A stretch of 25,396 bases of DNA from IMG/VR virus record IMGVR_UViG_3300034152_000215, positions 1 through 25,396 of that record; one strand, given 5' to 3'. The notes under the pieces were generated by a model. It was not told the origin of the DNA, did not search any database, and saw only the letters and a program-made list of their open reading frames with translations. Source of the DNA: a virus. The translations under genes were made by a program, and so were the position numbers. Each line of letters begins with the position of its first letter. Position 1 is the first letter of the stretch. This document shows, in pieces, positions 1-25,396 of this stretch.

Positions 1-1912
1 CGGACAGGTCGTAGCTGAGCAGGAAGTGCAGCAGGTTGCCGTAGCCCCCGCCGCGCATAGCGTCGGCGATCTTACCGAAGTAGACTACGTCTTGTATGTG
101 CTTGTCGCCTACGTCAAGAACGCAGAACCTTCTCTCCATCGGTCCGGCCGGTACTACCCAGTCCGCGTTGGACGCCATAATAATGTGCAGGCAGTTAGCC
201 TTCATCTCGGTGTCCACACCCTTCGGCGTCACCATAATAGAGTCCTCGGTCACGAGGGTCTTCAGCGTGGACGAGTGCTTCTTGTCCCCGGCGTAGAACG
301 CCTCGTCCGCGAACAGAACCACGCAGTCCCGCAGATGCGCGTTGAAGTTGCCGGTCAGGTGCATAGCGTTACTCACGTGGACGAAGTGTCTCCCGAACAA
401 CTTACCGAACGTCCGAGCTAAAAATCCCTTGCCCACACCCTCGTCTCCGCGCAGGACTATCGCCGTCTCTCCGGGCTGAGCCGGGAACTGGACCGTTCGG
501 GCCATCCAGCCGACAACATAGGCGAAGAGCTCCTTGCTACCACCACAGACATTCTTTAGTACGTGGTCCAGGAACGGCTTGTGCTTGTCGCCAGGTACAG
601 GCTCCCAGGCGTAGCCCCGCCACATGTTGTAAGCGTCAGAGAGCTCTCGGCCCGGAGCGAATATTACTCTCTCGTACTGCCGTCTCTTCTCGTGCTCCAG
701 CCACCACCGGCCCAGAGGCATGAATCGTGGGTTCTGCTGGGAGTCGGTGCCGATCTGCACTCGCTGGTTCATGTACTTCTTAGCGAAGTCCTCGAAGGTC
801 ATCGTGACGATTTGGTGTCTCTCGAGTATCTCGTCCCACTCTTCGAGGATAATTCGCTGCTTGCCACCCATAGTGACTACGGCGTACCGCTCGTTGAGTT
901 TGCGGAGGTTGCCCGACTTGTCCACCTCGTCCTCGCGAGCCCGCTCTATCTGGCGTAGCGCGTAGCCTTCGGCGTTACGGCCCTTCTCCAGAACAGAGGA
1001 GGAGATACGAAATTCCGGGTCCGTTATGACGGAGTAGATGGTGTCGTTGTCTATCTCCCCGCGAACCAGTTCGCAGCAGACGAAGAAGAGTGCCTCGCTG
1101 CGGGAAGGGAACCTCTCCGGCTTGTCCGGGTCCGTGCCCTGAACTATGACCACCTTGCACAGGTCAGATACCTTGTCGCCGAGGTCGCTTACGTCGTCCA
1201 CCCGCTTTATATTGCCGGAGATCTGCACCTGGCTCGTGCGGCCGAAACCCTTAGTCTCGGCCTGGACAGCTGGTGCTGGCTGGAAGATGTCGAGAGAATA
1301 GACTCTGTCCTCGTGCCACTCGACCAGTTTGGCCAGCGCCTCAACCCGGCCCTTCGCCTTCTTACGCTTGTCGGGTCGGTTGATTGTACCCGGTAGCCGC
1401 ATGATACGGTCTACGTTGTGGCAGTTGTCGGCACCGAAGGCGAGCTCGAGAGCCTGGTTGTACCGTTTGGCGTCCTCGTACAGAGCCTCCTCTCCGTTTA
1501 TGTCTTTCGGCTCGGCCAGCTTCCAGAATCCCTGGTAGCCGCCTCCGGAGAACACGATAACGGTAGGTTTGGGTAGACCGTTAGGAGGCTCTTGAAGCAG
1601 TCGTAAGGCTCGTTGACGCTCCTTATCTATGTCTTCCCCGGCTCTCGGGTCTATGTCCACGTGCAGCCAGTCGAGAGACTTCACGTCCTCCCGCATAGGC
1701 TTCTTAGAAACGTCGTACCGAGTCGAGTTCACCGAGAAGTATATGTTACGATCTTTTTCGAACTTCTCGAGCCACCCGAATACCTCGGAAACGTCTCGGA
1801 ACGTCGTAGTGACTATGCTCTTCTTGTCGAGAGTAATAGCCGTCAAGACCCACGGTCCGTCGGGGCACCACTTCTGTAAGAAATCCACAGATGCTTGGTA
1901 GTTCGGCGTCAT
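1..1912 (-). CDS. Primase-polymerase fused to SF3-like helicase (DUF5906 type), 3' end off window
   Basis: Probable replication protein that makes primers and unwinds DNA. 637 codons are visible from ATG 1912; the gene runs off the left edge. The N-terminal part has the archaeo-eukaryotic primase pattern: HVDID at residues 84-88 (metal-binding D-x-D), SGGGYQGFW at 122-130 and NVDRIMRLPGT at 166-176. The C-terminal part has a Walker A (GDEGVGKG, 489-496), a Walker B (VVLFADEA, 531-538) and a downstream ERRFCVLDV segment, as in the DUF5906 / D5-like helicases of NrS-1-type primase-polymerases. Its start overlaps the upstream nuclease stop as ATGA, so the two are probably translationally coupled. 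The family assignment is firm. Whether it also acts as a full polymerase is unknown, because a separate family A polymerase gene is present at 5976-7955. Confidence 0.88.
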   Translation of the reverse strand, partial: MTPNYQASVDFLQKWCPDGPWVLTAITLDKKSIVTTTFRDVSEVFGWLEKFEKDRNIYFSVNSTRYDVSKKPMREDVKSLDWLHVDIDPRAGEDIDKERQRALRLLQEPPNGLPKPTVIVFSGGGYQGFWKLAEPKDINGEEALYEDAKRYNQALELAFGADNCHNVDRIMRLPGTINRPDKRKKAKGRVEALAKLVEWHEDRVYSLDIFQPAPAVQAETKGFGRTSQVQISGNIKRVDDVSDLGDKVSDLCKVVIVQGTDPDKPERFPSRSEALFFVCCELVRGEIDNDTIYSVITDPEFRISSSVLEKGRNAEGYALRQIERAREDEVDKSGNLRKLNERYAVVTMGGKQRIILEEWDEILERHQIVTMTFEDFAKKYMNQRVQIGTDSQQNPRFMPLGRWWLEHEKRRQYERVIFAPGRELSDAYNMWRGYAWEPVPGDKHKPFLDHVLKNVCGGSKELFAYVVGWMARTVQFPAQPGETAIVLRGDEGVGKGFLARTFGKLFGRHFVHVSNAMHLTGNFNAHLRDCVVLFADEAFYAGDKKHSSTLKTLVTEDSIMVTPKGVDTEMKANCLHIIMASNADWVVPAGPMERRFCVLDVGDKHIQDVVYFGKIADAMRGGGYGNLLHFLLSYDLS

Positions 1913-9233: not shown

Positions 9234-9777
9234 TTCGCTTTCCTTTCCACAATAGGTCGTAGCTTCGTTTATACCTACTATAGTCTTTCGTCAGTAGTTC
9301 AAAGACGGGAGTAGGTATCCAGATCATATTCTCCGTAGTCCACTCGCCGATGTTCCGCAGTAGTACGTGGACATTCCGGTTCCCCACGAGTAGCTGGTCC
9401 TGACACCAGAGGAAGAGCTCCAGCATGTCCACGGCCTTAGCCCACCTGAGCTCTGTCTCGGACAGATGGCACTTCCTTATGAATTTCATCTGCACGTGAA
9501 TTAGTTCCTCTGCCTCCTCCATTCCACTCGCGATACCGGCGAACATCTGCTTAGCGTACCACGGCGCGTCCCCGGTCCACCGCTCAGCCACGTCATGGGT
9601 AAGGACGTACATAAGAAGGAGTTTGGAAGCATCCGGATACAGCGTATCGAGAAGCATCGCCGCGTGCCAGGAGTGCTTTGCATTGTCGTACTCCCCGAAG
9701 TGGGGAATAGTGTGGCATCGGCGCACGTGCCCGGCCTCGCGTAAATCTTGTATCCGGTCTAATGTTCTTTTGTCCAT
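9157..9777 (-). CDS. HD-domain phosphohydrolase (YfbR-like nucleotidase)
   Basis: 206 aa from ATG 9777. HD-superfamily metal residues are visible: NAKHSWHAA (residues 32-40) carries the first histidine and LTHDVAE (59-65) the HD pair, with a later Asp in AVDMLEL. The order and spacing resemble YfbR-type 5'-deoxynucleotidases and related dNTP hydrolases, which remove phosphate from dNMPs. In phages that replace thymine, nucleotidases of this sort drain the dTMP or dTTP pool; that role here is inference. A GTG at 9801 is possible but its SD is too close. The start overlaps the ThyA-like gene by 19 nt, and the polar C-terminal tail overlaps the next gene. Confidence 0.82.
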   Translation of the reverse strand: MDKRTLDRIQDLREAGHVRRCHTIPHFGEYDNAKHSWHAAMLLDTLYPDASKLLLMYVLTHDVAERWTGDAPWYAKQMFAGIASGMEEAEELIHVQMKFIRKCHLSETELRWAKAVDMLELFLWCQDQLLVGNRNVHVLLRNIGEWTTENMIWIPTPVFELLTKDYSRYKRSYDLLWKGKRSGPRHGHKTPGAHYPDNDGGRDRSS

Positions 9778-10814
9778 TTCGCTACTCGTCTCTCGAGCCA
9801 CTCTCCTGCGGCCATGGTCCAGTCATGATTCTTCGGCATCTGCTTAGCCACTATCTCCTGGGCGTTACGGAGTCTCTCTATTCTGCTACCGTCACCGCGC
9901 TTATAAAACGTAAGCGCTCTCAGCATAGGCGAGGCGATCTTTCTCGTAAACCAGTCCTGACTGCCCAGAGGAGTGTCGCCGACCTCGAGAAGCATGCGGC
10001 TGTCCGCGTCGAATATGGGCACGGTGCCCCGGACGAGAGGCGTAGTGACGACCATGTTCTGCTCGTAGGGACAGCCGTTCCTGTACTGGGAGGACGGCCA
10101 CGCCTTGGCGGCCAGCTGGTGCATTAGTTCCTCGTGCCGGTCGAGATACAGATGCAGGTTGTTGGTCACCTGCCAGTACCGGCCGACCCCGCAGCCTATC
10201 ATCTCCGCCATGTACTCCTGCAAGAAAGAGAAGTGCACCGCGTTGGCTCCGAGAGCACCCCATACCGCGTCGTTGCTCCGGTTGCACACGGTCATGTCGA
10301 GACGACGCTCGTGCACGGCGAAGTAGACGTGCGTGTTGCACGGTACGTCCTTAGTAGCTGCCCCGAGGTCGTAGTTCGCGTCCCATATCTGGAGCACCTG
10401 TCGCCGGCAGTTCTCGTCGGCCCGCATCGCCTCGGCTATCATGGTGAGCTGGTCCGTGCCCGTTTCCGGATGCGGGATCTCGAACCAGTTCCGCCAGCGA
10501 AAACCATAGGCCCCGTGGAATATCTTCCCGTTGTCCGAGAAGTCCGCCATGCTGGGTAGTATGGACACTAAGAACTCCACGTCTCGCCTACCGGCCAGCA
10601 TCCACAACGACTCGAGCACGTGGAAGAACGGGTTGGCGTCTCGCTCCGGCCAGAACACGACTCGCTCGCACGGTCTCTCGTACATAATAGTAGTCGGCCC
10701 GTCCATCTTAAGGACCGGTCCGCTACGACTCTCCTGGCGGATACCCTCGGTCATCAGTAGGTGCATAACCTCGGGCAGTGCCTGGTGAGCGTTTCTCGCT
10801 CTTACTACGTGCAT
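9759..10814 (-). CDS. Thymidylate synthase superfamily enzyme, possible dUMP hydroxymethylase
   Basis: 351-residue folate-dependent enzyme of the ThyA fold. Catalytic Cys159 lies in VPCNTHVYF, RSND is at 179-182, the dUMP-binding Asn is in GALGAN (191), and HLY (221-223) is the nucleotide-binding H-x-Y. GAYGFRWR (101-108) matches the ThyA YG.qWR element. The canonical PCH is PCN here and the following Gln is Tyr; RSND rather than RS.D recalls T4 dCMP hydroxymethylase, while the Asn favours uracil over cytosine. A dUMP hydroxymethylase making 5-hydroxymethyl-dUMP is therefore plausible; ordinary thymidylate synthase is the alternative. ATG 10814 has AGGAGG 8 nt upstream and overlaps the HNH stop as TAATG. 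It is longer than E. coli ThyA (264 aa). Confidence 0.85.
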   Translation of the reverse strand: MHVVRARNAHQALPEVMHLLMTEGIRQESRSGPVLKMDGPTTIMYERPCERVVFWPERDANPFFHVLESLWMLAGRRDVEFLVSILPSMADFSDNGKIFHGAYGFRWRNWFEIPHPETGTDQLTMIAEAMRADENCRRQVLQIWDANYDLGAATKDVPCNTHVYFAVHERRLDMTVCNRSNDAVWGALGANAVHFSFLQEYMAEMIGCGVGRYWQVTNNLHLYLDRHEELMHQLAAKAWPSSQYRNGCPYEQNMVVTTPLVRGTVPIFDADSRMLLEVGDTPLGSQDWFTRKIASPMLRALTFYKRGDGSRIERLRNAQEIVAKQMPKNHDWTMAAGEWLERRVAKWTKEH

Positions 10815-11134
10815 TATGACCACCTCCTAATAGAGTTTTCGCTCTGCGTTACGGCCTCCAGATGATCCGGGTTGCAGCATGCTCGTTGCGTACACATCGG
10901 CTTCTTGTGGTCTATAGTCATTCCTTCCGGGATCGCTTTCTTAAGCGCTGCATAGGCGACTCTGTGGACCCAGCGAGACTTACCTTCGTACCATATTTTC
11001 CCGTATCCCTTTCTGTCTCGACAACCCATCCACACCCAGCACCCGTCGTTATTCTCCCTAAGATTAGTAAACAGCCGCCTTAGCAGGTCGGGATCACTTA
11101 TCTTCGGGAAGGCGTGTGCCCGAGAGAGTACCAT
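10814..11134 (-). CDS. HNH endonuclease (HNH_3 / homing type)
   Basis: 106-residue free-standing HNH nuclease. The N-terminal CWVWMGCRDRKGYGKI (32-47) and WVHRVAYAAL (55-64) lead to IDHKKPMC (74-81) and CNPDHLEAVT (87-96), the pattern of phage HNH_3 homing endonucleases related to I-HmuI. No separate DNA-binding domain is visible beyond the short tail. It sits between the glycosyltransferase and ThyA-like genes, overlapping the first by 37 nt and sharing TAATG with the second, so it has been fitted in without breaking the operon. No SD at proper spacing precedes ATG 11134, suggesting low or coupled translation. It may be a selfish mobile gene or have a DNA-processing role. Confidence 0.85.
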   Translation of the reverse strand: MVLSRAHAFPKISDPDLLRRLFTNLRENNDGCWVWMGCRDRKGYGKIWYEGKSRWVHRVAYAALKKAIPEGMTIDHKKPMCTQRACCNPDHLEAVTQSENSIRRWS

Positions 11135-11919
11135 CCCTGATACGAGTCGTACGCCTTCTTCCAGTAGATCGTAACCTCTTTGCGCGTACCGAACTCTCCT
11201 CCCGACCTGTTCTTCTTCATCCGTAGCCGGACGAACGGCTCGTGCAGCTCAGCCAGCTTCTCGGCTGCCGCCGCGTGCAACTTGTGGCTTCGGTAGTCGC
11301 TGCAACCCCCGGCCTCCTGAGTCTGCTTCTGGCCCTGCGCAAAGTTCACCGTCATAGCGTTCGGCACACCTCGGCGGAGCAGCTGGAGCAAGACGTCGAA
11401 ATCCTCCATTACCGGGACCCTGCCGTGCTCGCAAGCGAGAAACTCAGCCGTGTTGAAGGCCAGCACCCGGATAAGTCTGGTGTTGATGTTCGGGCACTTG
11501 TCGAACCGATTGTTCCCCTCGCGAGGACTAACGCCGACAGCGCCGTAGCCCTTTAGGAGTAGATGCTCGATATAACCCACCATCCTCTTAGTCTCTTCCG
11601 GCTCCTGACCCCGCAGGTGCCAGTCACCCGGCGCCTTCCGGATCAGGAACCCGAGGTCGTCGTCCATCATGCAGAAGTGCTTGTCATTCCCGGCCTGTTC
11701 GGCACACCACTGCCGTGTCATAGCGATCCCGTCATACGGGCAGACCAGAACATTGTCGGCAGGAATACGTCCGGCGACAGCGTCCTCATATTGTGGCTTC
11801 TGACCGACAGGAACTACCACGTAGGGATGCGGCAGGTTGGTCTTAATTAGCTGTCTCAGAGTCCGGCCCTTCTGAGCCACCCTGTCAGCTCTTGACCTCG
11901 ACGGTATAAAGATCTTCAT
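11098..11919 (-). CDS. GT-A type glycosyltransferase, possible DNA-base glycosyltransferase
   Basis: 273-residue protein. It opens with MKIFIPSRSRADRV, the first beta strand and nucleotide-sugar loop typical of GT-A enzymes. CMMDDDLGF (83-91) supplies the D-x-D that binds metal and the sugar-nucleotide, and PVMEDFDVLLQLL is a likely catalytic-domain segment. The opening and D-x-D resemble glycosyltransferases that comparative genomics linked to modified-base operons of phages (TET/JBP-associated type). Its ATGA overlap with the pyrophosphorylase-like gene supports a shared pathway, so a modified thymine in DNA is the suggested acceptor. A cell-surface or protein acceptor is not excluded. ATG 11919 has GAGGAG about 9 nt upstream. 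Confidence 0.78.
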   Translation of the reverse strand: MKIFIPSRSRADRVAQKGRTLRQLIKTNLPHPYVVVPVGQKPQYEDAVAGRIPADNVLVCPYDGIAMTRQWCAEQAGNDKHFCMMDDDLGFLIRKAPGDWHLRGQEPEETKRMVGYIEHLLLKGYGAVGVSPREGNNRFDKCPNINTRLIRVLAFNTAEFLACEHGRVPVMEDFDVLLQLLRRGVPNAMTVNFAQGQKQTQEAGGCSDYRSHKLHAAAAEKLAELHEPFVRLRMKKNRSGGEFGTRKEVTIYWKKAYDSYQGWYSLGHTPSRR

Positions 11920-12782
11920 CCGTTGTATCTCCTCTTCATTCTCTTCCCCTCGTACTTAACCCGGTAGTATTTGGCGTATTCGCAGAGCCAGTGCTCCACC
12001 TCACGCATTTCCCACTTCGGCCAGTGCTGCGGCCACAACTCCTCCGCCGTACTAAGAACAACGAGTCGTTGCATAGCCTCTATCGCCGCGATCCGGTCCC
12101 TCGCTGCTCCGTACGACATCTCCTGGGCAGTTAGTTTGGACAAACCGAGACAGGCCCCTGGCCCAGGAGCAGCCCACATGGTGATATCCGGCGCGTTCTC
12201 CAGAAGATAAGTCCACCGCAAATCACTCGTTATCTCGTAGGCCATAAAAGAACCGAGACAAGGGAACCGCATTAGGATACGCCACATATTCTCGAGAGTG
12301 CACGGCTGCTCCAGCCGCGTAGTGATCTCCAGATGGTCGCGAGATATCGAGTGCACCATACTTATGATACCGTTCAACTTGTCCATGCCGTCGGGACTCC
12401 TGATAACGTAGGCTGCCCCGCATATAGGTCTGGTGTCCCTAAGCGCCTCGTGCGTGCGGACACCGTCGAAGTGTGTGTTGACGAACACCCTTGCGTCCAG
12501 TAGCTTCTGCAACGTCTCTACCTTATTGACGAGCCGGCAGAGGGCCATGGCCCACATAACTCGGGACTCGTTCCGATACGGCTCTCGCACGTTCTCGCGG
12601 ATCCAGGTAGTAACCTTGTCGTCCTCGCGAAACACGTTGCAGAAGTACCACTCGCGGAATATCGGGTCGCTGGTCCAGGGTCGGCTCTGCCCCTCTCGTC
12701 TCTTCTGGAGAATAGTGTACCGTTCTCTGGCTGTAGCGAAGTACTCTTCGACGCGGTCGTCTTGTAGTTCGTAGGTTGGCAT
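11916..12782 (-). CDS. Alpha-glutamyl/putrescinyl thymine pyrophosphorylase-like protein
   Basis: 288-residue protein that I match to the alpha-glutamyl/putrescinyl thymine pyrophosphorylase (aGPT-Pplase) family by its N-terminal signature: RYTILQKRREG (21-31), RPWTSDPI (34-41) and FCNVFREDDKVTTW (47-60). The rest is largely helical, consistent with the DNA-glycosylase-like fold proposed for the family. By published prediction, these enzymes replace the pyrophosphate on 5-(pyrophosphoryloxymethyl)uracil in DNA with an amino acid or polyamine, as in SP10- and phiW-14-type modified thymines. It is the first gene of the putative modification block and overlaps the glycosyltransferase as ATGA. 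No standard SD precedes ATG 12782. The catalytic residues cannot be named with confidence. Confidence 0.8.
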   Translation of the reverse strand: MPTYELQDDRVEEYFATARERYTILQKRREGQSRPWTSDPIFREWYFCNVFREDDKVTTWIRENVREPYRNESRVMWAMALCRLVNKVETLQKLLDARVFVNTHFDGVRTHEALRDTRPICGAAYVIRSPDGMDKLNGIISMVHSISRDHLEITTRLEQPCTLENMWRILMRFPCLGSFMAYEITSDLRWTYLLENAPDITMWAAPGPGACLGLSKLTAQEMSYGAARDRIAAIEAMQRLVVLSTAEELWPQHWPKWEMREVEHWLCEYAKYYRVKYEGKRMKRRYNG

Positions 12783-12818: not shown

Positions 12819-14597
12819 TTAATCGCACTCTCGTCGGCCAGACTTCGTATCCAGTCGACAGGAGGCTCCCTTCTTAGCAGTGGAGATAATACCCGAACGC
12901 TTACCTCCGACCTGGTAGGTGGTGATACCTTTACACCCCAACTCCCAGGCTCTCATGTAGAGTTCTTTGAACTCGGGCCACGGTGTATCACTTGGTACGT
13001 TGCAGGTCTTACTAACCGCAGAGTCAACAAACTTCGAGGCACAAGCGAGAACAGCAAGATGCTCGTCAATAGTAACCTGGTCTGCGGTCTTGCCCTCTAC
13101 ACCCAGTACTCGATAACCATAGTCGTCAACACTAAACTCAGTTGCTCCGTCTGGCATATTGACCAGGCGCTTCTGCTCCAGAGCAAAGACCGGCTCAATA
13201 CTGGACGATACGTTATCAGCACAAAGTGATATAGTACCTGTGGGGGCTATCGACAACAGATGACTGTTACGAATACCGTTCTGCCGAATCAAATCCTGAG
13301 TCGTACTACTAAGGCTCTTAATAAACTCACTGTCGCAGTACTTGTCTCGTTTGTACAAAGGAAACGGACCCTTCTCTATTGCCAACTCCACCGAGGCTCG
13401 GTAGCAGTTCTCAGCAAGAGTACTGAGTATCTCGGCCTGCACATCAACGAACTCCGCAGAACCATAGGGATAACCCATAAACTCGATAGCATTCGCGAGG
13501 CCAGTCACACCAAGACCCATCCGACGAGTGGCCTTAGCTGCCTTCTCCTGCTCATATAGGGGATAGGTAGTATTATCAATCACATTATCCATAGCTCGAA
13601 CAACGTGGTGAATGTCTTGAATCAACAGACTCCGATTAAACCATGGTGGTCCGGACGAAAGAAGATACTTCACGAGATTGAAAGAGCCGAGAAGACATGC
13701 CCCATATGCCGGCAGAGGTTGCTCCCCGCACGGATTGGTTGCGATTATCCTCTCGTAGTACTGCTGATTATTCATCCTGTTCACGGTATCAATAAAGATG
13801 ATACCCGGCTCAGCCCAGTCCCAGGCCGAACGCATAATAGTGTCCCAGAGCACCCGCGCGTCAATCTCCTGGTAGGACTTACCACCAAATCGTAGAGTAA
13901 ACGACTCCTTATCTCGCACAGCCCTCATAAATTCGTCCGTAACAGCCACCGATATGTTGAAGCCGGTAAGCCTATAGACTGCCTGTAGCGCCTTATGCCA
14001 CTCTCGCCACTCAACTGTGCCAGCCTCACACTCGGCCAGCTTACGAAGAATCGGTTCCACTGCCGCAGGTGGCTGCTTGCATCGAACGAACTCCTCGATA
14101 TCAGGATGATCCACCCGCATCACACCCATCTGGGCTCCTCGTCGATGTCCCGAAGAGGATATACATCGACAGATGGCATCGTAGATCTCCATGAAGGACA
14201 CAGGCCCAGAGGAGGAGGACTGGAGCTTGCGGATGAGATCTCCGCGCGGTCGTAGGGTGGAGAAGTCGTAGCCGATACCTCCTCCCATACGCATAGTGGT
14301 CGCTGCCTCCGTGGCTATCTGCATTATGGAGCCGTGGCCCTCCACAAAGGAGTCCTCGATCCTGCCGGAGACAAAACAGTTGAATGCTGTTACGTTCTTC
14401 TTGCTACCGATGGCAGCCTGTATTCGACCACCCGGCATAAATCTCATATCGAGAAGCGCATCGCGAAAACCGTGAAAGTGCTCTTCGCTATCCTCCAAGG
14501 TTCCGGCGATACGGTTCATCGCCTCTTTGAAAGTCTCGTTCTTGCCTCGATACTTCTCGGCGTGTATAGCTTCTGAAAACTCCAGTGTTGGTCCCAT
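12819..14597 (-). CDS. nrdJ: Class II (adenosylcobalamin-dependent) ribonucleotide reductase
   Basis: 592-residue single-chain class II reductase that turns ribonucleotides into deoxyribonucleotides using vitamin B12. FNCFVS (72-77) provides a redox Cys, NPCGEQPL (288-295) the radical-site Cys290, GACLLGSFN (299-307) follows, and SIAPTGTISL is the phosphate loop. The C terminus ends CRLDTKSGRRECD, probably the shuttle cysteine pair. Residues about 175-209 form an extra segment between the IEEFVRCKQ strand and TGFNISVAVTD relative to minimal NrdJ proteins as I know them. The gene is visibly lower in GC than its neighbours (sampled 60-bp lines 40-65%, most near 48%). ATG 14597 has AGGA 7 nt upstream and sits one base after the helicase stop. 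Confidence 0.93.
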   Translation of the reverse strand: MGPTLEFSEAIHAEKYRGKNETFKEAMNRIAGTLEDSEEHFHGFRDALLDMRFMPGGRIQAAIGSKKNVTAFNCFVSGRIEDSFVEGHGSIMQIATEAATTMRMGGGIGYDFSTLRPRGDLIRKLQSSSSGPVSFMEIYDAICRCISSSGHRRGAQMGVMRVDHPDIEEFVRCKQPPAAVEPILRKLAECEAGTVEWREWHKALQAVYRLTGFNISVAVTDEFMRAVRDKESFTLRFGGKSYQEIDARVLWDTIMRSAWDWAEPGIIFIDTVNRMNNQQYYERIIATNPCGEQPLPAYGACLLGSFNLVKYLLSSGPPWFNRSLLIQDIHHVVRAMDNVIDNTTYPLYEQEKAAKATRRMGLGVTGLANAIEFMGYPYGSAEFVDVQAEILSTLAENCYRASVELAIEKGPFPLYKRDKYCDSEFIKSLSSTTQDLIRQNGIRNSHLLSIAPTGTISLCADNVSSSIEPVFALEQKRLVNMPDGATEFSVDDYGYRVLGVEGKTADQVTIDEHLAVLACASKFVDSAVSKTCNVPSDTPWPEFKELYMRAWELGCKGITTYQVGGKRSGIISTAKKGASCRLDTKSGRRECD

Positions 14598-18938: not shown

Positions 18939-19100
18939 CTATTTTCGTCTCAGAGCACGCGACACAAGAGCTACCGAGGATATGATCGGCTCCCACTTCT
19001 CGTAGATCACCTCCTGAGCATATTCTGTAGCCGCCAGAACAGCTTTCTCGGGATCCTGTATTACCTCGTGACGTATCGCTTCTGCCGTTCTCTTGTCCAT
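18939..19100 (-). CDS. Small hypothetical protein, 53 aa
   Basis: Short frame from ATG 19100 to TAG 18939-18941 with a good SD (GGGGAG about 8 nt before the start). The product is probably helical (AVLAATEYAQEVIYEKWEP, residues 20-38) and ends in a basic tail (SRALRRK). No motif is recognised. It precedes the SNF2 helicase, separated by 107 nt that contain a possible GGGGAGAGG ribosome site but no clear gene. Confidence 0.6.
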   Translation of the reverse strand: MDKRTAEAIRHEVIQDPEKAVLAATEYAQEVIYEKWEPIISSVALVSRALRRK

Positions 19101-20201: not shown

Positions 20202-20210
20202 ATCAGTCTC

Positions 20211-20336
20211 CTAACAGTTCGCGAGGTAGGAGGCGATCGTCAACCACAACACGAATCGTGTGGACGTGTTACTGAACGGCCCGCCTACCGGCGAACGATA
20301 AAATTTCCACCACCACTCGCTCATTCTCTCGCACAT
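20211..20336 (-). CDS. Small membrane-type protein, 41 aa
   Basis: Frame from ATG 20336 to TAG 20211-20213, sharing TAATG with the upstream small gene. The product begins with charged and Trp residues (MSEWWWKFY at 5-13) and ends in a hydrophobic stretch (RFVLWLTIASYLANC), a probable membrane anchor. AAAGGAAC is suitably placed for ATG 20336; an internal ATG at 20324 is an alternative start. No homology is recognised. Evidence for being real is the coupled junction and the hydrophobic pattern. Confidence 0.5.
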   Translation of the reverse strand: MCERMSEWWWKFYRSPVGGPFSNTSTRFVLWLTIASYLANC

Positions 20337-20488
20337 TATTTGTTCCTTTCGAGAAGAGCATCAATCTTGGCGTAGCGATCGTTGGTAACCTCGACCACGT
20401 TCTCGGCTGCGTTCTTTACTGCCCAACCTATAGTCAGTATAACGATCATCGCAGTAATAAGAATCGACATTTTAGTTTTCGTTTCCAT
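20336..20488 (-). CDS. Small single-TM protein, 50 aa
   Basis: Frame from ATG 20488 to TAA 20336-20338 with a strong SD (GGGGAG about 7 nt upstream). A basic N terminus (METKTKM) precedes a transmembrane helix (SILITAMIVILTIGWAV, residues 8-24) and a helical polar tail. It is the first gene after the palindromic promoter. Small early membrane proteins of phages often act on the host envelope, but nothing here identifies a target. Confidence 0.62.
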   Translation of the reverse strand: METKTKMSILITAMIVILTIGWAVKNAAENVVEVTNDRYAKIDALLERNK

Positions 20489-20503
20489 GGTTTTCTCCCC
20501 TTT

Positions 20504-20539
20504 CACTTAAAGTATACTATACTTTAGGTGAAAAGCCAA
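20504..20539 (-). promoter_or_regulatory. Early promoter overlapping a 27-bp palindromic operator
   Basis: On the minus strand TTGGCT (20534-20539) and TATACT (20511-20516) are separated by 17 bp, a reasonable sigma70-type promoter just ahead of the 50-aa gene. The -10 lies in a 27-bp palindrome (20504-20530, centre 20517) with one mismatched pair, a likely binding site for a dimeric repressor or activator. Thirteen bases of it (20505-20517) recur exactly at 22494-22506 upstream of another gene. Confidence 0.66.
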
Positions 20540-20551
20540 GAAAATTCTCAA

Positions 20552-21176: not shown

Positions 21177-22217
21177 CTACGACGCCAGAACCAGCGCCTC
21201 CTTAAAGGCTGCCTGCTTGCAGTCGTTGGAAGTACCGAACAGGTTCGAGTGCACCCGGCCCTCGGACTCCTGCACCGACAGGAACCGGCCGCGCTGGTGG
21301 TCATGGTAGAAACTGACCGCGTTGTACGCGGCCCATGCCGTACCACGAACACCGTCCATAACCTGCTCGTCCCGATCCATGTTTTTACCCCACGTCTCCA
21401 GGATACCGTCCCGGCGAGCTATCTGCTTCTCGAACCGGCGAACGTCCTTGGGGTTGGTCTCGTCCACCTCGGGCACCACGCCGAAGGACGCGTCATAGAC
21501 CGCGCGGAAGTACGCGGCGACCTCGCTCTGCTTCACGTGCTTAGCCGCCAGGACCCTTACCTGGGCCTCGAACTTCTTGATCTCGTCCATTATCAAGCCC
21601 AGGGCGAGGCGTGCGTGGCCGATCTTCTGCTTGATGTCGCCGGTGTGCTGGAACTGGATACCCCTGCTCAGATCCTTCTCCGAGAGACGGAGTGTGTTGG
21701 CGCAGACGACCCGGACCGAGGTCGGGTAGATCTGAAACGCCGCGCTACCGTCGTGGCTGTTTCGGACCAGCACGTACTGCTGGAGGATGTCCTGGTCGGT
21801 AACCGCTATGTCCTGCGGCAGCCGGACCAGGGCGAATATCTGTCGCCCGTTACGGAGCGAGCCGGCAGTCTCCACCACCACCGTCTGGTCAGCCTCGACC
21901 AGGATATCGGCGAACTCGGCGAGAGCCTTATTGCTTACCGGCTTGTACTTACTCCCGACCACCCCGAGCAGACCCATAGTGTCCTTACGGATGTGGGCCG
22001 CGTGGGTCGGCACCTTGAACTGCTTCTTCTTTCCGTCCGTGTCCTTGTACTGACAGACCAGCGGTAAGAGCTCGGTCTCCCAATCGAGCCCTATCTCCTG
22101 GAACGCGGGCCAGGCCCTTAGCCCGTCGTTGATCTCGACGCCAAGCCCGTGCCACGCCTTCTGGCCGTGCAGCCGGACCTCGCCGAAAACGTCTGTCGCT
22201 TCGATTTCGTGTGCCAT
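21177..22217 (-). CDS. DUF932 (phage/plasmid-like TIGR03299) protein
   Basis: 346-residue protein matching the DUF932 / phage-plasmid-like family: the N-terminal MAHEIEATDVFGEVRLHGQK is followed by AWHGLGVEI, and the centre has GVVGSKYKPVSN and YPTSVRVVCANTLRLS. Members are common in phages and plasmids, but their biochemical function is unsettled; they are often near replication or anti-restriction genes. ATG 22217 has AAAGGG about 8 nt upstream. The length is typical. It is the second gene after the 22.5 kb promoter and is probably expressed early. Confidence 0.85.
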   Translation of the reverse strand: MAHEIEATDVFGEVRLHGQKAWHGLGVEINDGLRAWPAFQEIGLDWETELLPLVCQYKDTDGKKKQFKVPTHAAHIRKDTMGLLGVVGSKYKPVSNKALAEFADILVEADQTVVVETAGSLRNGRQIFALVRLPQDIAVTDQDILQQYVLVRNSHDGSAAFQIYPTSVRVVCANTLRLSEKDLSRGIQFQHTGDIKQKIGHARLALGLIMDEIKKFEAQVRVLAAKHVKQSEVAAYFRAVYDASFGVVPEVDETNPKDVRRFEKQIARRDGILETWGKNMDRDEQVMDGVRGTAWAAYNAVSFYHDHQRGRFLSVQESEGRVHSNLFGTSNDCKQAAFKEALVLAS

Positions 22218-22232
22218 GCTCTACCCTTTCAA

Positions 22233-22475
22233 TTAGAACTCGTTTAGTTCCTCGATGGCCTCGGCAAGGTCCCCGATCCACTCCGCCGCGTTGGGGAAGC
22301 CCTGCTCTTCGGTCACTATACACTCAGACATCCACAACTCCTCCACAAGATTCCTCAGGAGCTCGGGTTGTTCCTCGCCGAAGGCCAGCGTAAGAACCTT
22401 GGCGACACCCTTCGGCGTAAGCGCGTTATTGTTACGAGTCGTAATGTCAAACTTGATTGGGGTCTTAAGTGCCAT
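22233..22475 (-). CDS. Hypothetical acidic protein, 80 aa
   Basis: 80 aa from ATG 22475, where GAGAGGTGAAG forms a clear SD; the frame remains open upstream but crosses the promoter. The N-terminal KTPIKFDITTRNNNALTPKG is polar, followed by two helices (VAKVLTLAFGEEQPELLRNL, then EWIGDLAEAIEELNEF) with strong net negative charge. Small acidic early proteins are often DNA mimics or host-protein binders, but this is only a suggestion. First gene after the repeat region. Confidence 0.7.
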   Translation of the reverse strand: MALKTPIKFDITTRNNNALTPKGVAKVLTLAFGEEQPELLRNLVEELWMSECIVTEEQGFPNAAEWIGDLAEAIEELNEF

Positions 22476-22499
22476 CTCTTCACCTCTCTTTCTACTTAA

Positions 22500-22528
22500 A
22501 GTATACGCCGCATCTGGGAAAAGCAAAA
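22500..22528 (-). promoter_or_regulatory. Candidate early promoter
   Basis: TTTTGC (22523-22528) and TATACT (22500-22505) with 17-bp spacing, followed by the same TTTAAGT as the 20.5 kb promoter and then by the SD of the 80-aa gene. The 13 bases 22494-22506 are identical to half of the palindrome at 20504-20530. It reads toward the early block and lies just downstream of the repeat array. Confidence 0.6.
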
Positions 22529-22551
22529 CGAAATCCCAAAATTTTCCGACA

Positions 22552-22855
22552 TACTTTACCTTGGCCCATAGGTAGAGTAAATCGCAAGGTAGAGTATGAA
22601 GGTAGAGTACGTCTAAGTTCGCCGTTCCACTGCCCTTATATTACTTTACTCTACCTACTCTACTAAAAGAGAGTAAATTACTAAGCTGGAGACAGAGGCC
22701 TGCCGCTACCTGGGCACTGTGTCGACTTACGGAATTGAAAGAGGGTAGAGTACGTAGAGTAAGTGGAGTATGTTGACCAGTTGGTAGGGGATAAGATGAG
22801 TTCTGCGTGCCGTATCTCCCCTCTACCTTGTGGACAGGGTGGAGTACGTAGAGTA
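22552..22855. repeat. 9-bp iteron-like repeat array in a 380-bp non-coding region
   Basis: Non-coding between 22476 and 22858. Plus-strand GGTAGAGTA-type 9-mers occur at 22571, 22588, 22601, 22744, 22753, 22762, 22838 and 22847. The trio at 22744-22770 and the pair at 22838-22855 are directly tandem. Reverse-orientation copies lie at 22647 and 22656, with an 8/9 copy at 22552. AT-rich stretches flank them (22525-22560 and 22637-22680). This is the kind of layout seen in iteron origins or multi-site operators. No gene is seen in the region. Confidence 0.78.
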
Positions 22856-22858
22856 CGC

Positions 22859-23122
22859 TTACCGGGAGATGATACTCTTTATACCTACCCAGAAGATGCC
22901 GAGGGCCCCGACTACCGCGATCCCGACAGCCGCCAGAACAGCCTTACCCCGGACGGACTCCGTGGTGGTGCGCCAGTCTCGGAGGAACTGGAGATCCCGC
23001 TGGACGTCGAGTGGGTGGGACGTGTCTACGCCGAACTTAGTAAGCGCCTCGTTCACGGCCCTTTTCATAAGGTCGCAGAGCTCGTCCGGCTTCATAACTA
23101 CCTGCTTGGTCTCGTCTTCCAT
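22859..23122 (-). CDS. Small C-terminally anchored membrane protein, possible holin
   Basis: 87-residue protein. Residues 1-58 are charged and helical (including LDVQRDLQFLRDWR, 38-51). Residues 61-82 form one transmembrane segment (AVLAAVGIAVVGALGIFWVG), and the tail is short and basic. Phage proteins with this layout (soluble helix then one C-terminal membrane helix) are often placed near tail and lysis genes and may be holins or antiholins. The position directly after the tail gene supports that loosely. SD weak (ACGAGTATATAGT). The TAA stop lies three bases from the repeat array. Confidence 0.68.
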   Translation of the reverse strand: MEDETKQVVMKPDELCDLMKRAVNEALTKFGVDTSHPLDVQRDLQFLRDWRTTTESVRGKAVLAAVGIAVVGALGIFWVGIKSIISR

Positions 23123-23173: not shown

Positions 23174-25396
23174 CTAAGGAACGAATATTGCGTAGGCGTC
23201 CTCTGCCGACGTTGGAGAGTTCGCTCTGAAGATAGTCTCGGTAGCCCCGCCACCGAGGGCCAGTCCGTTTGCTCTGATCTCGATGGTATCGCCCGAGGTG
23301 ACTCCTGTCATACTGCCGGTCGTCGCGCTCTGAGCGATACAGGTGAGCCACCCGCCTCCGTTCAGCCGATACTCGATGGGTCCGGCGGTGTTAGCCCTAC
23401 CGATTGTGCACGAGTAGGAGCCGGTGTCTGGCGCTGTCCAGGACGTCGATATCTCCGTGTTCCCGAGGACGCCCATATTCTGGTCTCCGGATAGCTCGGC
23501 AGAGCCGCAGAGAAAGTCCCAGTCGAGTGTCTGTGTGGCCTCGTAGACGACCGTGTCGAAGGTGTGGCGGGTCTTAATCTTGATACGTAGCTCGCTCGGG
23601 ATGACACCGTCCATATACCGTAGGATGGCTGTTCTGTAGGCGTAGTCTATCTTCGTGGACTGCCACCCGGTCGTGTATAGAAGCGATGGAGTTCCGCTGG
23701 GATCCTTCCAGACCTCAATGGCGTACTCGGTGGTGTTAGCTGCCGGGAACGTAGGATCAAGCGTCTCGGCATCTGTAGCGTTCTGGGACACCTCGTCGTA
23801 GATTCGGTAGTCCCTACGGTTGAATTCTATCTCTATACCCTTATCGTCCTCGATAGAGCCTTGCTGGACGTCCAGGGAGACCGAGCCGGTTGGATACTGA
23901 GTACCGTTCAGCTCTGTGAACGTGGGTGGATAAGGTCTACGCTCACGATTCGCCATTGTAAGCGAGATAGTCGTCAGTGCCGCATCGCTCTCAGAAACCT
24001 GATTCCCGTGGAGGTCATACGGGAGGAGTTTTATATCCACGTTGTTGGTTAGCGGAAAGGCCGTTACAGTTAAGGCTCCTCCGACGAAGATGAACTTAAC
24101 GGCTGTGGCAGCCGCGTGGGACTGCTGAGCCGAGTCGAGCAGGCCTCGGTAACATCCGGTGAGTCGAATACCGCCTGTGATAGTAGTAGCCCCGGTACAG
24201 GCGACAAACTCATCACCGATCAGGAGTAGGTTCGTCAGCTCATTTCCAACATCTGTTGCGTTCGAGTCGAGAATCTCGGCGACATTCATATCTGTTAGTA
24301 CATCAATCGTACTGTCGTCGTTGTCGATTGCAGAGTCTAAGGCGCCCGCAAACATGAAGCTGCTCCCCTGGCCGGCATCAAAGAAACTGCCGCTCGGAGT
24401 ACCAACAGCGTTCCGCTGCCGAAAGAGATAACCGGCCTCCTCTCGTCCCTGGGAGACGCCAGATAGGAACACCCGGCCTTCCGTCGTAACCTCGTCCCGA
24501 CGCGTAAAGGCATAGGGAGCCTCAAACCCAACCTGTTCTGTAGCTGGGAACGGGATCAGGTTCTTGTCCGGAGCCGTCCAGGAGGAGGCATCGGGATCTG
24601 CGAAGGATGGCGACCTATAGGAGAAGACATCCTGTACCGCGTCCACTATAATCTCCGGCTCGTCTTTGTTGCCGGTATCTATCCTTGTAATCCGCATCGG
24701 CAACTGGTCTATCTCCAGCGAACCGTGTGTATAGGTAAGCGCAAAGACCTCTCCGACATAGGCATCCCAGAAAGTACGATCCATCTTGAACCGACCTTTC
24801 GCGAAGGGATAGGAACTGGACCGCAGTTCTCTCCAGGCTATCTTATTCGCCAGCGCATCATCCTTAACACCCTCAAAGGTCCACGTTGCTGGAACAACCC
24901 GATTCTGTATCCGCATATTCGCACCATCCTGGGCAGGTGCGTAGCTCTGACTGTAGTCGTTAACACGGCGCTGATATTGTATTCGGATACTGTTGAAGGT
25001 CTCGTCCCAGGCAGCCCTGGAGAAGTTTATAACCTCCTTAATGTTATCATTATCAGCAACCCTAAGAGAACCTATACTATATCCGTCACGCGCTAAGGCA
25101 ATACGCCACTTACCAGTTGTTGGATCTATTCGAAATCGTCCGTCTATCTGCTTCTCTATCTCAGCGATAAGGGATGTGGCCTTTCGCTGTGCCATAATAG
25201 CCATACTTATCCCGTTTCCCTCAGTATATAGGGTATCTGCCGCGTCCTGAAACTCAGGGATATCTACGTCTGAAGACGGATAACCATAGCCCCATTCTGT
25301 GTGGGTTAGGATTTCGTAAGCCATCTCCATAGGATTGCAGTCGTAGGTATTAACTATTGGATTAGCACACCCGAGTCCGGTAGGAATTCGTGTAAC
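23174..25396 (-). CDS. Tail protein (J-like / tip attachment), 5' end off window
   Basis: 740 residues visible; the frame stays open to the right edge, so the start is outside the window (the first internal ATG, at 25330, is unlikely to be the start). The upstream NPMEMAYEILTHTEWGYG and TTGKWRIALARDGYS segments resemble phage tail-tip or host-specificity proteins of the J / tip attachment type. The later part has several beta-rich repeats with Gly-, Ser- and Thr-rich loops (ISTSWTAPDTGSYSC, then GDTIEIRANG near the C terminus), suggesting fibronectin- or Ig-like domains for host binding. It is probably the last structural gene of a siphovirus-type tail module. Parts of the 5' region are AT-rich compared with the replication genes. 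Confidence 0.82.
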   Translation of the reverse strand, partial: VTRIPTGLGCANPIVNTYDCNPMEMAYEILTHTEWGYGYPSSDVDIPEFQDAADTLYTEGNGISMAIMAQRKATSLIAEIEKQIDGRFRIDPTTGKWRIALARDGYSIGSLRVADNDNIKEVINFSRAAWDETFNSIRIQYQRRVNDYSQSYAPAQDGANMRIQNRVVPATWTFEGVKDDALANKIAWRELRSSSYPFAKGRFKMDRTFWDAYVGEVFALTYTHGSLEIDQLPMRITRIDTGNKDEPEIIVDAVQDVFSYRSPSFADPDASSWTAPDKNLIPFPATEQVGFEAPYAFTRRDEVTTEGRVFLSGVSQGREEAGYLFRQRNAVGTPSGSFFDAGQGSSFMFAGALDSAIDNDDSTIDVLTDMNVAEILDSNATDVGNELTNLLLIGDEFVACTGATTITGGIRLTGCYRGLLDSAQQSHAAATAVKFIFVGGALTVTAFPLTNNVDIKLLPYDLHGNQVSESDAALTTISLTMANRERRPYPPTFTELNGTQYPTGSVSLDVQQGSIEDDKGIEIEFNRRDYRIYDEVSQNATDAETLDPTFPAANTTEYAIEVWKDPSGTPSLLYTTGWQSTKIDYAYRTAILRYMDGVIPSELRIKIKTRHTFDTVVYEATQTLDWDFLCGSAELSGDQNMGVLGNTEISTSWTAPDTGSYSCTIGRANTAGPIEYRLNGGGWLTCIAQSATTGSMTGVTSGDTIEIRANGLALGGGATETIFRANSPTSAEDAYAIFVP

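Follow-up and report, generated by a model that had tools for sequence, protein, structure and literature searches.

The window analysed here, i.e., the complete stretch of 25,396 bases of a virus record classed as linear, carries nearly all of its genes on the minus strand and is, judging from its gene content, a linear piece of a phage genome of the YuA-like (Mesyanzhinovviridae-related) type. Common to the group are the gene order as well as the polymerase, the primase, the SNF2 helicase, and the terminase. The polA product is up to 57.8% identical to those of Abidjanvirus phages, relatives of its primase and helicase occur in YuA, Ab20, and CN1, and the TerL protein of a relative shows 57% identity to that of YuA. 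Assuming the ATG at position 22475 to be the start of the next gene, the non-coding gap studied here extends from 22476 to 22858. As originally predicted, it lies between the late and the early block, separating a tail protein and a phrog_6420 protein from the early genes:

23174-25330, minus strand: tail protein on the late side
22859-23122, minus strand: phrog_6420 protein, last gene of the late side
22500-22528, minus strand: sigma70-like promoter (TTTTGC-N17-TATACT) between the repeat array and the first early gene, read from the sequence
22233-22475, minus strand: small protein without a family match, first gene of the early block
21177-22217, minus strand: DUF932 protein of the early block, with replication and nucleotide genes beyond it
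1-1912, minus strand: AEP-SF3 primase, the proposed binder of the repeats, represented by its N-terminal 637 amino acids (the C-terminal domain lies off the contig)

Relatives of the phrog_6420 protein also adjoin the early array in contig G002 and in phages YuA and CN1. The promoter at 22500-22528 is absent from the list returned by a generic promoter scan of the window; the same hexamers with the same spacing can be read at the first array of G002.

A search of both strands located 12 sites of the GTAGAGTA type, 8 or 9 bp long and in both orientations, between positions 22552 and 22855. The exact 8-mer GTAGAGTA is present in eight of them and the exact 9-mer GGTAGAGTA in five. The prediction of at least ten copies in both orientations with tandem sets is thereby confirmed, including a perfect 9-bp triplet and pairs, with the correction that the inverted set at 22642-22664 consists of a tandem pair plus an overlapping variant. 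That exact copies are missing elsewhere holds for the 9-mer, of which none was found in the rest of the window, but not for the 8-mer, which recurs once in the 25.4 kb (position 13892). Eight copies of GTAGAGTA within 304 bp compare with a maximum of 2 to 4 copies of any 8-mer within 304 bp in 300 simulated order-2 Markov sequences of window length. The array is organized as follows:

22552-22560, minus strand: array site
22571-22579, 22588-22596, and 22601-22609, plus strand: three outer sites on the early-gene side (span 22571-22609)
22642-22649, minus strand: GTAAAGTA variant site, overlapping 22647-22655
22647-22655 and 22656-22664, minus strand: tandem pair GGTAGAGTA, AGTAGAGTA
22642-22664, minus strand: inner left arm, the inverted tandem set composed of GTAAAGTA overlapping GGTAGAGTA, followed by AGTAGAGTA
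22635-22684: least stable 50 bp in the window by nearest-neighbour energy, a candidate unwinding element inside the array
22665-22743: 79-bp spacer between the inner arms, containing AAGCTGGAG
22744-22752, 22753-22761, and 22762-22770, plus strand: inner right arm, the perfect direct tandem triplet GGTAGAGTA CGTAGAGTA AGTGGAGTA with a 9-bp step
22838-22846 and 22847-22855, plus strand: outer direct tandem pair GGTGGAGTA CGTAGAGTA

With respect to structured RNA, the array yielded only a sub-threshold chance match.

A search with the DUF932 protein retrieved two contigs at 72% identity, which are nearly identical to each other over 39,931 bases. G002 (59,230 bases) carries an array in the same gap as the window and a second one upstream of its small and large terminase genes. 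An even spread of the repeats through a whole genome, named beforehand as the outcome that would count against a functional array, was not observed in this 59-kb relative, where 21 of the 24 exact copies of GGTAGAGT are clustered in the two arrays and three lie outside. The two modules of G002 are 80% identical over 241 bp, those of G019 90% over 287 bp. The motif AGCTGGA from the spacer of the window recurs in both spacers of G002 and in G011/L073. The array of the short (4.4-kb) contig G011 is located upstream of a terminase gene whose product is 73% identical to that of G002, and it aligns with the array of the window over 219 bp (83%); it is likely the late-side counterpart of our array in a close relative. 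A pattern scan for two tandem 9-mers recovered 49 stretches, several with 8 to 15 sites in 400 bp in both orientations. According to protein comparisons, most of these contigs encode a YuA-like polymerase, primase, helicase, and terminase, and their arrays lie either in front of the early block or upstream of the terminase genes; G012 looks unrelated and was discarded. The IMG/VR relatives may be represented by incomplete genomes.

G002 also contains a 59-bp stretch in two copies of 90% identity (18966-19024 and 49443-49497), each holding TATACTTAATGTAGAG and followed by a start codon. One copy follows the first array and the other, at 49443, lacks an array; the stretch is probably a repeated phage promoter.

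The architecture was also searched for without any given motif, as two inverted 22-nt arms that are 50 to 130 bp apart and each periodic at 9 bp. In eight relatives the two best loci genome-wide were the two modules:

YuA: 33045 and 508
CN1: 34802 and 384
SN1: 52536 and 25230
Ab20: 31298 and 218
Epa43: 42928 and 12199
G002: 18742 and 54112
G003: 19141 and 53699
G004: 34703 and 2914

The array of the window is its top locus (22641) with a score of 36, compared to 29 for the next locus and 29 to 30 for shuffled sequences, and periods of 8 and 10 gave nothing but noise at the module loci. In seven of the eight relatives one module is found upstream of the early helicase block and the other upstream of the terminase; the exception is G004, whose arrays are not adjacent to the helicase. 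The window shows a single array since the contig ends first, and a matching module upstream of the terminase genes is expected in the missing part of this phage. Arrays that ranked less clearly are present in RHph_I65, Bhz59, G005, G006, G007, and G019. A general repeat-density scan did not pick out the modules in GC-rich genomes, whereas the architecture-specific scan did.

The repeat unit itself differs between lineages. YuA, Ab20, Ab19, PaMx11, Epa43, CN1, SN1, M6, and RHph_I65 carry 9-mers of their own in the matching gaps, and the lineage-specific 9-mer is common to both modules of one genome, e.g., GTTAAGTAA in YuA, whose genome contains no exact copy of GTAGAGTA. The architecture and the core motif recur in phages of Pseudomonas, Bordetella, Sphaerotilus, Stenotrophomonas, and Rhizobium. 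The motif-blind scan revealed no comparable pair in JenP1, Seurat, HTVC027P, R5C, and Pan1, which have a related helicase or terminase and in which a primase of the YuA kind was not detected. In G016, G018, and G020, whose primases are about 50% identical, the helicase gene is not preceded by a gap, and a clear array was not found at this place.

The modules coincide with DNA of low stability. Within the window, the segment at 22635-22684 ranks first in ease of melting. In YuA, CN1, SN1, Ab20, Epa43, RHph_I65, Bhz59, and G007, the two modules take the first two ranks among all 50-bp loci of the genome; those of G002, G003, and G019 also rank high. The array thus combines direct short repeats (the 9-bp tandem sets) with adjacent easily melted DNA, as is characteristic of iteron-type origins. 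The GC-skew profile suggested as a check gave a divided answer: the cumulative minimum falls within the array for the window and for G002; in YuA, CN1, and others it lies outside the modules.

Elanor, Donnerlittchen, DLP4, PaMx28, and JWX each contain loci that melt with unusual ease, including one immediately 3' of the distant primase gene; they were not counted as further cases of the paired module because of weak 9-bp periodicity and weak similarity between the loci. The JWX loci match through an exact repeat of 125 bp, possibly a terminal repeat. Two loci are far easier to melt than the rest of the genome in Elanor (62.0k/22.1k), Donnerlittchen (39.0k/56.9k), and DLP4 (32.6k/54.2k). In all three, one of the loci lies just 3' of the primase gene; the other precedes the major capsid gene in Elanor and Donnerlittchen. 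In the 94-kb contig G017, the regions 164-563 and 44103-44502 share a 109-bp match at 98% and contain the two loci of the contig that melt most easily, one of them upstream of its helicase gene; this pair looks like a further degenerate form of the paired module.

Which protein could recognize the repeats? A Myb-like protein, the DUF932 protein, and the primase had been proposed as binders. The first two were dismissed after they were not found in the array-bearing contigs G005, G006, G007, and G013; of the relatives compared, G002 alone yielded a DUF932 protein, and the Myb-like protein was confined to G002 and G003. All YuA-type genomes tested encode the primase, which is retained as the candidate. 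This protein has a RepB-type AEP region and an SF3 helicase (DUF5906/VapE-like), for which structures of the NrS-1 primase (6k9c and 6k9e, labelled "Primase") match at an E value of 1e-8, and the YuA protein has a weak Pox_D5 match near its C terminus. The model of the C-terminal domain contains a helix-strand-helix-helix-two-strand unit with confident stretches and is predicted to be a winged helix. Its best structural matches are mostly winged helices, all of them weak (Z of about 5 or less), and include the RFX DNA-binding domain, the winged helices of Cdt1 and ORC, and AsfvPrimPol. Foldseek returned no match of this model below an E value of 0.001, the P4 structure 1KA8 is not among its structural matches, and the profile of the domain found no match among the sequences of solved structures. 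The primase windows that correlate best with the motif class fall in the region of the recognition helix; this co-variation was rejected as support, since the best windows of terL and polA reach the same level.

The closest parallel is phage P4, whose alpha protein binds the origin repeats with a winged helix (PMC4234260). In the P4 record, type 1 repeats are found at two sites and in both orientations, with tandem spacings of 9 bp in crr and 10 to 11 bp in ori. The likeness comprises 8-bp iterons in both orientations, some with 9-bp spacing, two arrays per genome, and a single primase-helicase; two iteron arrays with both orientations were likewise detected in G002, G003, YuA, CN1, SN1, Ab20, and Epa43. 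However, the type I iteron of P4 is GGTGAACA, in contrast to GTAGAGTA or GTNRAGTA-like units in the phages studied here, and P4 has a TOPRIM instead of an AEP primase. Moreover, each module described here stands at the head of either the early or the late block, and the two are similar throughout their length. Because no sequence similarity was found between P4 alpha and the C-terminal, putatively DNA-binding end of the family primase, we suggest a likeness in the way of working and not membership in the P4 system. A parallel for the domain order AEP-SF3-winged helix has been proposed in the ORF904 protein of plasmid pRN1, the origin of which is a stem-loop without iterons (PMC4234260).

Taken together, the evidence for and against seems to us about evenly balanced for the proposal of a twin iteron origin of the P4 kind, of which the array would be one half. 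It would overlap the control regions of the early and late blocks and have the phage primase-helicase as its initiator. This protein would bind the 9-bp iterons with its predicted C-terminal winged helix, assemble around the easily melted DNA, unwind it, and then prime replication; sigma70-like promoters for the early and late blocks, as read from the sequence, are located in the same regions. Since promoters and modules share these regions, the start of replication is probably physically coupled to block transcription. An origin is favoured by the pairing of the modules, by their variable orientation, by their coincidence with the DNA that melts most easily, and by a primase-helicase that occurs throughout the family and is predicted to end in a winged helix; easily melted DNA also marks promoters, which speaks against an origin. 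We infer both the binding of the primase to the 9-mers and a start of replication at the array. The original choice between a replication origin and a multi-operator region is supported in part, as either or both could apply, and a dual role of the array as origin and control region is likely.

A purely transcriptional function, with an operator or enhancer array through which a phage regulator switches the early and late blocks and which has no role in replication, appears rather unlikely, although some points favour it. The modules head both blocks, and in both the window and G002 the array is followed by sigma70-like promoters that contain TATACT. Furthermore, the GenBank record of YuA (NC_010116) lists two sigma70 promoter fragments of medium activity at 489-568 and 33014-33160, exactly at the two module places upstream of the helicase gene gp02 and the small terminase gene gp50. 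The paired 9-bp architecture is present at both; the record annotates the promoters, but not the repeats. On the other hand, the two modules of Ab20 and Epa43 are about 87% identical and mutually inverted although helicase and terminase are read in the same direction, an arrangement more in keeping with an origin than with a plain promoter. Given the patchy occurrence of the Myb-like and DUF932 proteins, none of the known phage regulators fits the family as a whole, and the putative G002 promoter at 49443 matches the one at array 1 yet has no adjoining array.

A site for recombination, partition, or packaging (attP-like arms, a centromere, or pac) is improbable. Tandem arm sites around a core do resemble the attP arms of tyrosine recombinases, P4 also has 12-bp attP arm repeats, and one module adjoins the terminase, but each genome carries the module twice, once far from the terminase, and no integrase or partition gene was present among the proteins scanned, a subset of those encoded by the genomes. 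Least credible is an array of host-regulator sites by which phage expression would follow the state of the host: clusters of short CtrA sites have been described in large intergenic gaps of some alphaproteobacterial phages distantly related to YuA (PMC9437464), but these are TTAA-N7-TTAA half-sites, which are not known to form a paired 9-bp tandem architecture, GTAGAGTA and the 9-mer of the window contain no TTAA, and both architecture and core motif are common to phages of five host genera.

The twin origin may be extended to the whole family, with two matching iteron modules, one heading the early and one the late block and each free to take either orientation, an AEP-SF3-winged-helix primase, a 9-mer preference that drifts with the lineage while both modules change together, and a replication start coupled to the early/late layout. 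This broader proposal leans slightly to the doubtful side. If it is true, large tailed phages with another type of primase possess a counterpart of the P4 ori/crr arrangement that is either unrelated to it or related only very distantly. YuA-like phages are widespread and include phages studied for therapy, and a description of their replication origin was not found in the open literature searched. As there are only two modules, both short and defined, and one candidate initiator, the question is directly testable in laboratory Pseudomonas phages.

Some further observations concern other regions and contigs. Dense GTAGAGT repeats in L075 (6622-6728, with a 5-bp step) and L031 look like simple tandem repeats and not like the 9-bp module. 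The window has a second large gap at 20202-20551, in which the region around 20507 is its second most easily melted locus and possibly holds a further promoter. A thymidylate-synthase-like protein is encoded at 9759-10823, and its YuA relative is annotated as a putative deoxyuridylate hydroxymethyltransferase. The gene adjoins those of two conserved proteins (11098-11919 and 11916-12782), and together they are possible thymine hypermodification genes.
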